Shown here: positions 800 to 42,103 of the stretch, in pieces
Layout of the letters: every line of letters begins with the position of its first letter
Numbering within the stretch: the first letter of the stretch is position 1
DNA from: Enterococcus sp. DIV0212c
GTDB taxonomy: Bacteria > Bacillota > Bacilli > Lactobacillales > Enterococcaceae
Length of the DNA: 64,000 nucleotides
Assembly: GCF_017377505.1 (NCBI RefSeq)
Contig: NZ_JAFREN010000008.1
Location: 62,001 to 126,000, forward strand
Direction of reading: 5' to 3'
Notes under the pieces: model-generated
What the model was told of the DNA's origin: nothing
What the model saw: only the letters and a program-made list of their open reading frames with translations
Databases searched by the model: none
Made by a program: the position numbers and the translations under genes

Positions 800-2086
800 A
801 TGACAGAGAAAGAATTTCGCAATGAAGAAGCAGTTTTAGATATTCATGATAGACCAAAAACAGCCCATTGGATTGGCTTAAGTTTACAGCATTTATTCAC
901 TATGTTCGGAGCAACAGTTTTAGTCCCGATTTTAGTTGGAATTGACCCAGGAATCGCTTTAGTCAGTTCTGGTCTTGGAACGATCGTTTACTTGTTCGTT
1001 ACCAAAGGGAAAATACCAGCCTATTTAGGAAGTAGCTTTGCATTTATTGCAGCAATGCAAATGTTGATGAAAAGCGACGGTTATCCAGCAATCGCTCAAG
1101 GCGCGATGACAACAGGTTTGGTATACTTGATCGTTTCGATCATCATCAGCAAAATTGGTTCAGCGTGGTTGGATAAAATTTTACCGCCGATCGTTGTCGG
1201 ACCTGTAGTGATGGTCATAGGTCTTGGTCTGGCAGCAAATGCTTCAAATAATGCTATGTTCAATAACGGCGAATACGATTTTAAATTTATCGCGGTCGCA
1301 TTGATTACTTTAGGCTTAACGATTTTTTACAACATGTTTTTCAAAGGGTTTCTCGGCTTGATTCCGATTTTATTAGGGATTGTCAGTGGTTACTTAGTGG
1401 CATTAGCGTTCGGAATCGTAGACGTAGAGCCAATCAAAAATGCCGCTTGGTTTGCTATGCCGAACTTTGAAATCCCATTCGTCCAATATCAACCTAAATT
1501 ATACCTAAATGCAATTACAACAATGGCACCAATCGCTTTTGTGACAATGACAGAACATATCGGACATTTAATGGTCTTGAATAAATTAACTAAACGTAAC
1601 TTCTTCCAAGATCCAGGCTTATCCAAAACATTGATGGGGGACGGAGCAGCACAAATCGTAGCTGGTTTAGTCGGAGGACCGCCTGTCACAAGTTACGGAG
1701 AAAACATCGGGGTTCTAGCAATTACACGTGTGCATAGTGTCTTTGTTATTGGAGGAGCAGCAGTCTTTGCAGTTGGTCTTGGATTTGTCGGGAAATTAAG
1801 TGCAGTCATTTTAAGTATTCCTGGTCCAGTCATTTCGGGTATCAGTTTTGTATTATTCGGAGTAATTGCAGCAAGCGGATTAAAAATCCTGATTGACAAT
1901 CAAATCGATTTTGATAAGAAAAAGAACTTACTTATCACATCTGTGATCTTAGTTATTGGTATCGGAGGATTAGTCTTTAAGCTAGACACCTTTGAATTAT
2001 CATCAATGGCATTAGCGACAGTTTTAGGAATTATTCTGAACTTGATTTTACCTGAAACTGCACGTAGTGAAGAAAAGTCTAACTAA
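800..2086 (+). CDS. uraA: Uracil permease (NCS2 family)
   Basis: This is a 428-residue membrane transporter of the nucleobase/cation symporter 2 family, importing uracil with protons. The protein is strongly hydrophobic, with about 12-14 predicted segments starting near residue 25 (HWIGLSLQHLFTMFGATVLV). It also has the family signature around VGGPPVTSYGENIGVLAITRV in the second half, where the conserved glutamate of the family sits. Its place directly after pyrR and before pyrB is the standard order in Bacillus and Enterococcus pyr operons (called pyrP there). The three palindromes downstream could affect readthrough into pyrB. Confidence 0.95.
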   Translation: MTEKEFRNEEAVLDIHDRPKTAHWIGLSLQHLFTMFGATVLVPILVGIDPGIALVSSGLGTIVYLFVTKGKIPAYLGSSFAFIAAMQMLMKSDGYPAIAQGAMTTGLVYLIVSIIISKIGSAWLDKILPPIVVGPVVMVIGLGLAANASNNAMFNNGEYDFKFIAVALITLGLTIFYNMFFKGFLGLIPILLGIVSGYLVALAFGIVDVEPIKNAAWFAMPNFEIPFVQYQPKLYLNAITTMAPIAFVTMTEHIGHLMVLNKLTKRNFFQDPGLSKTLMGDGAAQIVAGLVGGPPVTSYGENIGVLAITRVHSVFVIGGAAVFAVGLGFVGKLSAVILSIPGPVISGISFVLFGVIAASGLKILIDNQIDFDKKKNLLITSVILVIGIGGLVFKLDTFELSSMALATVLGIILNLILPETARSEEKSN

Positions 2087-2116
2087 TAAAAATGAAGCGG
2101 AATGTTGTTAGAATCA

Positions 2117-2236
2117 TTATCTAGCTTCAAGAGCTAACCTTTCGGAAAAAAGATAAATTATAAATGAGGCAAAGAGCACCTCAGTCATAATTTCCTATTT
2201 TTCTGTCAAGGCTGACAAGCTCTTTCAGCTTTTGTG
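2117..2236 (+). repeat. Long imperfect palindrome between uraA and pyrB, unit 1 of 3
   Basis: First of three tandem units with a period of 120-121 bp. Each unit can fold over nearly its full length into one hairpin. In this unit the inner arm around 2153-2168 pairs with about 2170-2186, the A-rich arm near 2145-2160 pairs with the T-rich arm near 2183-2204, and the outer arm with AGAGCT near 2129-2134 pairs with AGCTC near 2218-2222. There is no long T run at its end, so it is not an ordinary terminator. Confidence 0.85.
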
Positions 2237-2357
2237 TTATCTAGCTTCAAGAGCTAACCTTTCGGAAAAAAGATAAATTATAAATGAGGTAAAGAGCACC
2301 TCAGTTATAATTTCCTATTTTTCTGTCAAGGCTAAGCGAGCTCTTTCAGCTTTTGTG
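2237..2357 (+). repeat. Long imperfect palindrome between uraA and pyrB, unit 2 of 3
   Basis: The left arm is nearly identical to unit 1; the loop has one change (GAGGT instead of GAGGC). On the right arm, CAGTCATAA becomes CAGTTATAA, which improves pairing with the left TTATAA segment, and GCTGACAAGC becomes GCTAAGCGAGC. The hairpin layout is the same as in unit 1. Confidence 0.85.
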
Positions 2358-2475
2358 TTATCTAGCTTCAAGAGCTAGCCTTTCGGGAAAAAGATAAAAA
2401 ATAAATGAGCCAAAGAGCACCTCAGTTATTTTTTCCTATTTTCCTGTCAAGGCTAAGCAAGCTCTTTCAGCTTTA
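2358..2475 (+). repeat. Long imperfect palindrome between uraA and pyrB, unit 3 of 3
   Basis: The third unit carries paired changes relative to units 1 and 2. Left TCGGAAAA becomes TCGGGAAA while right TTTTTCTG becomes TTTTCCTG, and left AAATTATAA becomes AAAAAATAA while right TTATAATTT becomes TTATTTTTT. Both arms therefore changed together and pairing was kept. The unit ends about 8 bases before the AAGGAGG ribosome binding site of pyrB. Confidence 0.85.
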
Positions 2476-2494
2476 AAACTAAGGAGGAAAACGA

Positions 2495-3421
2495 ATGATC
2501 ATCACATCTGAACGTATCAGTTTAAAACATCTTTTAACCGTAGAAGCATTAAGTGATCAAGAGGTTATGGGGTTGATTCATCGTGCACAAGAATTTAAAC
2601 AAGGTGCGACATGGCAACCTGAGAAAAAGCAATACTTTGCGACAAATTTGTTCTTTGAAAATAGTACACGAACCCATAAAAGTTTTGATGTTGCTGAGAA
2701 AAAACTAGGGATCGAAGTGATTGAATTTGAAGAAAGCATGAGCTCGGTAAAAAAAGGTGAAACGCTTTATGATACGGTACTGACAATGTCAGCAATCGGA
2801 GTAGATGTGGCAGTCATTCGTCACGGTGAAGAAAATTATTATGACGAACTGATCCAAAGTAAAACGATCCAGTGCTCCATCATCAACGGTGGTGACGGCA
2901 GCGGACAGCATCCAACGCAATGTCTATTAGACTTAATGACGATTTACGAAGAGTTTGGTTATTTTGAAGGTCTAAAAATTGCGATCGTGGGCGATATCAC
3001 ACATTCCAGAGTTGCCAAGTCAAACATGCAAATGCTAAAACGACTTGGTGCAACAATCTTTTTCTCAGGTCCAGAAGAGTGGTACGACAAACAATTTGAA
3101 GCTTATGGACATTATATGCCTTTAGACGAAGTGGTTGAAACTGTTGATGTAATGATGTTGCTGCGCGTTCAGCATGAACGTCATGATGGGTCAGAACTAT
3201 TTTCAAAAGAAGAATACCATCAGCAATACGGCTTAACAGTTGAGCGAGCAAAACAACTGCAAAAGCATGCGGTTATCATGCATCCAGCTCCTGTCAATCG
3301 GGATGTTGAACTAGCCGATTCACTAGTCGAAGGTATTCAATCCAGAATCATTCAACAGATGAGCAACGGCGTTTATATGAGAATGGCAATTTTAGAAGCA
3401 GTATTACATGGAAAGGCATAG
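2495..3421 (+). CDS. pyrB: Aspartate carbamoyltransferase catalytic subunit
   Basis: PyrB condenses carbamoyl phosphate and aspartate to carbamoyl aspartate, the committed step of pyrimidine synthesis. The carbamoyl-phosphate motif STRT is at residues 57-60, and the HPTQ..LD motif is near residue 135. The length of 308 residues is normal for the catalytic chain. No pyrI regulatory chain is present, as in other Gram-positive bacteria. An AAGGAGG site at about 2480-2486 serves the ATG. The gene is separated from uraA by the triple palindrome and runs straight into pyrC. Confidence 0.97.
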
Positions 3422-41976: not shown

Positions 41977-42103
41977 AGGTTCGTCTTCAGGGGCAGGGTG
42001 AAATTCCCGACCGGTGGTTATAGTCCACGACCTACTTCATTTGAAGTGGCTGAATTGGTGAAATTCCAATACCGACAGTAAAGTCTGGATAAAGAAGATA
42101 GGG
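41977..42103 (+). ncRNA. FMN riboswitch (RFN element)
   Basis: All the conserved blocks are present in order: AGGGGCAGGGTGAAATTCCC, GACCGGTGGT, a variable hairpin (TACTTCATTTGAAGTGG), GGTGAAATTCCAAT, ACCGACAGT and AGTCTGGAT. It binds FMN and reduces expression of the gene downstream, here the riboflavin transporter ribU, probably through the terminator at 42141-42173. Confidence 0.96.

Follow-up and report, generated by a model that had tools for sequence, protein, structure and literature searches.

A dispersed hairpin repeat at translation-initiation signals in Enterococcus sp. DIV0212c, present in three tandem copies before pyrB, and its relatives across Bacilli

Results

The window, i.e., the whole stretch of 64,000 nucleotides of Enterococcus sp. 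DIV0212c DNA that was analysed, carries three long hairpins between uraA and pyrB. These are a triple copy of a dispersed repeat that stands at the junction between the stop codon of one gene and the Shine–Dalgarno sequence (SD) of the next. Its regular placement at translation-initiation signals is the most important regularity that we found, and was absent from an earlier note on this DNA. We regard it as an even question whether this Bacilli-wide repeat encodes an RNA hairpin that closes on itself and has spread into ribosome-binding sites, that ribosomes initiate across in streptococci (dnaJ, parC, alaS, purE), and whose unfolding, cutting or binding would switch many operons at once.

Three tandem units between uraA and pyrB

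When the window was searched for direct repeats, three copies of 121 nt were obtained, with spacings of 120 and 121. They correspond to three head-to-tail palindromic units of about 121 bp that occupy the uraA–pyrB gap at 2117-2478. Unit 1 (2117..2237, + strand) and unit 2 (2238..2358, +), the latter being the query of our DNA searches, were delimited by repeat search, blastn, folding and profile search; unit 3 (2359..2478, +), a subfamily variant with paired arm changes, by repeat search, blastn and folding. In blastn, units 1 and 3 were 96% and 91% identical to unit 2. The upstream gene (800..2086, +; stop at 2084-2086, 30 nt from unit 1) encodes a uraA-type uracil permease of the NCS2 family that scored above the cut-off of TIGR00801 and just under the own cut-off of the uracil permease model NF007995. 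Downstream, the SD of pyrB (AAGGAGG, 2481..2487, +), recognised from the sequence, lies directly 3′ of unit 3, a layout met again in 40 of 45 clusters of units described below. It is a normal SD, 3′ of all the hairpins, and is followed by pyrB (2495..3421, +; start at 2495), whose product, aspartate carbamoyltransferase, scored above the cut-off of NCBIfam TIGR00670. Repeat search, blastn and folding thus confirmed the three tandem hairpin units 5′ of pyrB that the earlier note had claimed; the extent given there, 2117..2475, holds the three units, but the last one runs on to about 2478, directly 5′ of the SD.

Every unit folded into a single long imperfect hairpin, with energies of −30.7, −35.3, and −37.2 kcal/mol for units 1, 2, and 3, and z-scores against dinucleotide shuffles of −2.60, −4.09, and −4.75, respectively. 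It had been claimed that both arms of unit 3 had changed jointly with pairing kept, and the letters quoted for this are present. The left arm reads AAATTATAA at 2155 and 2275, and AAAAAATAA at 2396 in unit 3; the right arm reads TTATAATTT at 2305 and TTATTTTTT at 2426 (unit 1 has TCATAATTT in its right arm). Similarly, TCGGAAAA at 2142 and 2262 stands against TCGGGAAA at 2383, and TTTTTCTG at 2198 and 2318 against TTTTCCTG at 2439. A unit elsewhere in the genome (locus L032) is nearly the same variant (AAAAAATAA with TCATTTTTT, TCGGGAAA with TTTTCCTG), and the similarity of unit 3 to it (0.908) equals that to unit 2 (0.908). Hence, the paired changes of unit 3 need not have arisen at pyrB.

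The 3′ end of a second repeat type (TTTGCTTTGAAACACAGTGAATAAAATGAACTGATGTTG...GCGGAACGTTGTTAC) seems to survive at 2087-2116, 5′ of unit 1; the same type was also seen in the uraA–pyrB gap of G011, G008, and G003, and in L140, L151, L154, L156, and L179.

Most clusters in the genome end directly before SDs

Searching the genome with unit 2 by blastn gave 71 matches, and an iterated nhmmer profile run on 37 fetched stretches gave at least 79 units in 45 clusters of one to four tandem units (22 single, 14 double, 7 triple, and 2 of four). It may be noted that the earlier note had offered, as one possibility, an expanded EFAR-like palindromic repeat (EFAR reportedly being the Enterococcus faecalis repeats of Venditti et al. 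2007). As to kind this is supported, since a multi-copy palindromic intergenic repeat that forms a hairpin was found, the likeness being one of description. Palindromic arms are present in the units.

The position of the clusters was examined by asking for GGAG 0–13 nt after the last unit and a start codon 4–10 nt further. This arrangement was present in 40 of the 45 clusters, the distance to GGAG being exactly 10 nt in 25. Random positions in the same loci, coding sequence included, passed in 301 of 18,000 cases (1.7%). Of 7,880 positions taken from the 150 nt preceding 197 reading frames (each 150 aa or longer), 687 passed (8.7%). One of the five failing clusters, L042, has a truncated unit and in fact ends at AGGAGG. 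On the other side, an upstream gene of the same strand ended within 20 nt of the first unit in only 9 of 39 cases.

The downstream genes are unrelated. They include pyrB, mfd, lgt, dapA, pstC, menB, codY, hslV, trpB, fabD, and nfo, as well as clpB, tsf, polC, proV, citrate synthase, V-ATPase A, cas5c, and others (the scan covered 38 of the 43 distinct downstream proteins, five of which gave no NCBIfam match at 1e-15). A regulon by pathway was therefore rejected on the gene names (CodY, HslV, MenB, TrpB, FabD, ClpB, Tsf, PolC, citrate synthase, Lgt, Mfd, etc.). The cas5c gene, of type I-C (L048 2497-3228, − strand), has one copy directly before its SD.

Other repeat types stand beside some of the units. 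Another palindromic-looking sequence (CACTACGCT..TTCGATCTCA..AAGGATTGAAGG), or parts of it, is nested in the left arm of some, as in the lgt leaders of G001 (L329) and G007 (L337) and in L127 and L144.

These results bear on the suggestion, made in the earlier note from the place where Bacillus has its third PyrR attenuator, that the hairpins exert a special control on pyrB. The place between uraA and pyrB fits such a control. Moreover, three terminator-like patterns were predicted within 1900-2600 against 0.3 expected, one formed by the loop hairpin of unit 2 (+ strand) and two by the loop hairpins of units 1 and 2 (− strand); the same interval yielded no promoter-like site of the sigma-70 type. 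Against this, no PyrR binding site (RF00515) was detected in the gap, while the one before pyrR was detected: the sole match in L031 600-3700, which extends from before pyrR into pyrB, was at 841-991, in the leader before pyrR and just outside the window. In addition, the identical unit type precedes dozens of unrelated genes, and at pyrB itself several congeners either lack it or retain no more than remnants. A PyrR-type attenuator for pyrB is therefore strongly disfavoured, and we consider this or any other pyrimidine-specific control of pyrB by the units very improbable. Many copies at unrelated sites, without effect on transcript levels, had been named beforehand as an outcome that would favour a neutral repeat; the genome-wide search found the first half of this, which concerns place.

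A known RNA family was likewise rejected for the unit, which had no match in Rfam 15 at the gathering score. The scan of the window and 18 loci returned only the FMN riboswitch, rRNA, and tRNA, and eight G000 loci gave no match at the unit coordinates at E up to 5. The FMN riboswitch of the window lies at 41979-42103 (+; RF00050, 101.5 bits).

The hairpin covaries

For 64 of the 79 units (15 lacking the core motifs were left out), an alignment was made and a consensus hairpin of 30 pairs was evaluated. Paired cells amounted to 94.7% against 82.0% in shuffles, and cells changed on both sides to 307 against 105.8; neither value was reached in any of 500 shuffles, although related copies can exceed shuffles even without structure. 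Changes on both sides were seen for 21 of the 30 pairs. When the partners were slid by one column, pairing fell to 45.8–55.8%. This control, along with the many pair types, speaks against kinship of the copies as the whole cause of the covariation. What the earlier note had read from one unit, selection on the folded form or a copying process that preserves the fold, is now seen on 64. The covariation could instead reflect a hairpin-dependent copying mechanism.

The inner loop, AAAAGATAAA opposite TTTCCTATTTT, was nearly invariant in the 64 units, while the stems flanking it varied in concert. The conservation of the loop is partly built in, because the units were chosen by core motifs; two of the left-out units have a variant, AAAATAGATAAA opposite TTTCCTAATTTTC, which is itself a paired change (by eye). 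A conserved internal loop (AGATA opposite CCTA) would suit a processing or regulatory RNA, in which a double-strand RNase cuts the hairpin or a protein binds it at that loop, setting the mRNA stability or translation of many operons. The position of the units in 5′ UTRs and operon gaps agrees with this, and Correia elements have been reported as RNase III targets (PMC3049150, in the part available). However, no pathway is common to the downstream genes, and no Rfam family covers the unit. On balance, and considering the streptococcal leaders described below, such a role is rather improbable in our judgement.

Empty and filled sites in the genus

The uraA–pyrB gap was read in 22 genomes of the genus and classified by eye. 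Three units occurred in one genome only, that of the window, whereas G005 and G010 each had two. Six genomes had a single unit, in part damaged, seven retained remnants, and six had none. At the clean empty sites, in G006 and G014, the stop codon TAG of uraA overlaps the SD, and no stem-loop is visible by eye. Short remnants of the closing stem are left at pyrB in some congeners.

The hprK–lgt junction of the same 22 genomes, also read by eye, held one to four units in 13, a remnant in one, other sequence in two, and was empty in six, where stop and start are 11–13 nt apart. Five of the 22 junctions, all of them filled, have as hprK stop codon a TAG that belongs to the 5′ end of the element (TATCTAG). 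At lgt, TAG is found on both sides of the insert (by eye), which would fit a 3-nt duplication.

Judging from the empty sites at pyrB and lgt, the element probably inserted after the stop codon of the upstream gene and ahead of the SD; both signals survive. From the clean overlap in the empty sites, the direction appears to have been insertion and not loss.

Such turnover is also what would be expected of a neutral, MITE-like element inserted by machinery with a preference for targets resembling a stop codon or SD, the covariation then arising from hairpin-dependent transposition or gene conversion between arms, with no role in RNA. At both pyrB and lgt, the 22 congeners show that copies have been turned over, by deletions, remnants, and changes in the tandem arrays, and 21 of the 45 units in arrays had their nearest relative in their own array, against 1.1 expected. 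EFAR, moreover, is named among MITEs (PMC3733652, in the part available). Nevertheless, we take a purely neutral element to be not very likely, on the strength of the plasmid and phage searches and the streptococcal closing helix described below.

Streptococcal copies can separate the SD from the start codon

Streptococcal copies of the element can have the SD on their 5′ side and the start codon on their 3′ side. For this analysis, a covariance model (R2) was built from 38 pattern-selected units, two of which were dnaJ leaders. The genus of G038 was taken to be Streptococcus from DnaJ and PurE, which in the best genomes were 98–100% identical to proteins of named streptococcal loci.

A match to model R2 was found directly before the start codon of dnaJ in 45 of 58 genomes. 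All 45 leaders had AAAGGA 70–190 nt upstream of the start, and none had an SD-like word in the interval from 16 to 4 nt before it. Among the 13 genomes without a match, eight had a near SD, three had a far SD with a degenerate or truncated insert, and two had neither. Similarly, purE had a near SD in none of four filled loci (by eye) against 24 of 26 empty ones, among the best 30 of 54 matches. PurE proteins beginning with MKP share a start codon, and the others begin one codon earlier. A far SD with none near the AUG was thus seen in 45/45 dnaJ and 4/4 purE leaders with the element, unlike at pyrB of the window.

Further split cases were parC, purN, purB, alaS, an E2 (pdhC-type) gene, and pheT, the last named by eye from its reading frame. 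When the 30 loci listed among 79 matches from four genomes were read by eye, about 10 of the 30 had the copy at an initiation site; in half of these it separated SD and start. In S. ratti, the 3′ tail of the 16S rRNA contains UCCUUUCU, to which the far SD, AGAAAGGA, is complementary.

Neither in-frame translation through the element from the far SD nor a second SD near the AUG was seen in any of the 47 streptococcal leaders, of 48 read, in which a far SD was found; the set counts some leaders twice (e.g., L171 and L263), and the start of L148 was set slightly off. L373, which is the L250 locus in opposite orientation, has a near SD and is without the element. A short upstream reading frame (TTG-AAC-..-TAA after the SD, seen by eye in some dnaJ leaders) was discarded, as it is not kept in other subtypes. 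Removal of the element as an intron is not supported; the copies read did not interrupt known reading frames.

The purE leader L288 has an extra insert in the right arm of the element; this does not prevent closure of the predicted fold, and the SD remains distant from the start. Where streptococci lack the element, leaders of the same genes (dnaJ in L355, L357, and L361; empty purE leaders such as L264) have a different long, structured-looking sequence (..GTCGCTTGCGTCC.. or similar).

A conserved closing helix and the predicted spacing

A spacing of 7 nt between SD and AUG is a normal one. When the SD-to-AUG segments of the 45 dnaJ leaders were folded, a median of 7 unpaired exterior nt (range 7–22) was predicted, bearing in mind that the ends of folded RNAs tend to be close anyway. 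Exactly 7 were left in 24 of the 45, and the longer leaders kept more, up to 22. The number was under the mean of 40 shuffles in 38 of 45 leaders and not so in seven; the mean energy was −36.0 kcal/mol against −23.1 in shuffles. In the 108-nt type, the linkers usually measure 3 nt on the SD side and 4 nt on the AUG side; in longer types a small hairpin precedes the main one and the 3′ linkers are longer. The structure, as predicted, would therefore restore a functional spacing.

For 25 segments of 102–116 nt (dnaJ, E2, pheT, parC), picked by length from 63 distinct ones and including many near-identical dnaJ rows, the closing helix was 98.2% paired, and five of its nine pairs had changes on both sides. 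Over the whole structure, 46 double-changed cells were counted against 10.7, a value that none of 500 shuffles reached. A closing helix that covaries in leaders of different genes argues against the neutral element outlined above, as do three shortened inserts (L365, L369, and L042) that look still able to keep the closing stem (by eye). The same leaders argue against processing, since a cut in the streptococcal hairpin would take the only visible SD off the message.

Spread across Bacilli

A covariance model built from the units of this genome (R1) matched 75 of 198 genomes of the order, in 21 of 54 genera. Under stricter filters, at least 47 of 299 genomes and at least 16 of 119 genera of the class were matched, at least 28 of these genomes lying outside the order. 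Scanning named genomes for the core pattern gave enterococci, streptococci, lactococci, and Alkalibacterium among the matches listed; E. moraviensis, E. termitis, and E. ureasiticus were among the named matches with the unit type of the window.

The 20 loci read from other genera comprised 19 from outside the order and one from the window's own family. Their outer arms were alike and the inner arms different in most. None of the 20 copies stood directly before an SD (by eye), which favours the neutral element. That element, if actively mobile, would be expected on plasmids or phages, yet nothing matched when 72,556 records of plasmids and 50,697 of phages were searched by blastn with window 2087-2494; carriage by either was accordingly rejected for these records.

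One copy in S. ratti lies between a tRNA gene and the 23S rRNA (L128 3197-3249, −). Four copies in G243 (L308, L312, L316, and L320), alike where read, adjoin the 5′ end of the 23S rRNA; their strand is uncertain owing to the palindrome, and the 23S was recognised by eye. A copy in an rRNA spacer and copies adjoining 23S rRNA count in favour of the processing element.

Discussion

We lean slightly towards the view that the repeat is a self-closing, translation-transparent insert, that is, an EFAR/MITE-like repeat tolerated at stop/SD junctions. By this mechanism, the palindromic repeat would insert where the stop codon of one gene is followed by the SD of another. Its transcript would close into a hairpin whose base joins the flanking signals, and the ribosome would meet these near their old spacing, SD to AUG in streptococci and stop to SD in the genus of the window. 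Covariation would then reflect selection for an insert that stays closed, and additional tandem units would come at little cost, since every unit folds up on its own. The hairpins at pyrB would be a translation-transparent spacer and not a pyrimidine sensor. As the best reading of the data, the self-closing insert has its strongest case in streptococci, with their split of SD and AUG, and a weaker one at pyrB with its intact SD; initiation at pyrB needs no bridge because the SD lies 3′ of the hairpins. The 30 nt that separate the uraA stop from unit 1, the small share of upstream genes ending close to a first unit, and the copies away from initiation signals in other genera and in four streptococcal genomes also weigh against this reading.

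If ribosomes do initiate across these hairpins, the rule that an SD stands 5–10 nt before the start fails for some streptococcal genes, and gene finders and translation-rate models would misjudge those with a split SD. Filled and empty orthologues would offer a natural comparative test of how structured spacers are handled by the 30S subunit. The spread of a palindromic repeat through operons with essential genes, which it leaves functional, would be accounted for as well, as would the covariation of its arms. Split ribosome-binding sites would then be a genus-wide feature made by a repeat, and not a curiosity of single phage or E. coli genes.

Comparison with known systems

EFAR units are said to be palindromic, to vary in length by assembly of modules, and to carry a short stem-loop at empty sites. 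BOX, RUP, and SPRITE of Streptococcus pneumoniae are not known to resemble the unit of the window in sequence. Like it, these are small interspersed structured repeats, of a related genus, some of which are transcribed; in contrast, they are reported to be over-represented between convergent genes (PMC3049150, in the part available). Efa-1 is a structured family of 163 bp with 65 copies in E. faecalis (PMC2267715). EFAR and Efa-1 resemble the present repeat as dispersed intergenic enterococcal repeats that form stem-loops, a comparison made by description and not by sequence; the portions of those descriptions available mention no fixed place before SDs, covariation, or Bacilli-wide relatives. 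Also by description, bcr1–bcr18 of the Bacillus cereus group are alike as intergenic repeat families, partly MITE-like and partly with conserved RNA structure (PMC3446304). In the literature accessible to the search, no description of this element at SDs was found, which is a weak absence, as subscription papers were mostly outside it.

The streptococcal arrangement is closest to split sites known from single genes. In phage T4, a hairpin between SD and AUG cuts the spacing from 22 to 5 nt for gene 38 and from 27 to 11 nt for gene 25, and destabilising it lowers initiation (PMC3014915, in the part available). In the split site of E. coli thrS, a long hairpin is accommodated by the ribosome (PMC3936740, likewise). 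Common to all of these, and predicted here, is that folding of the intervening RNA places a distant SD within working range of the AUG. Unlike those single genes, with T4 spacers that are much shorter, the present case involves a repeated module of 108–175 nt at several genes of one genus.
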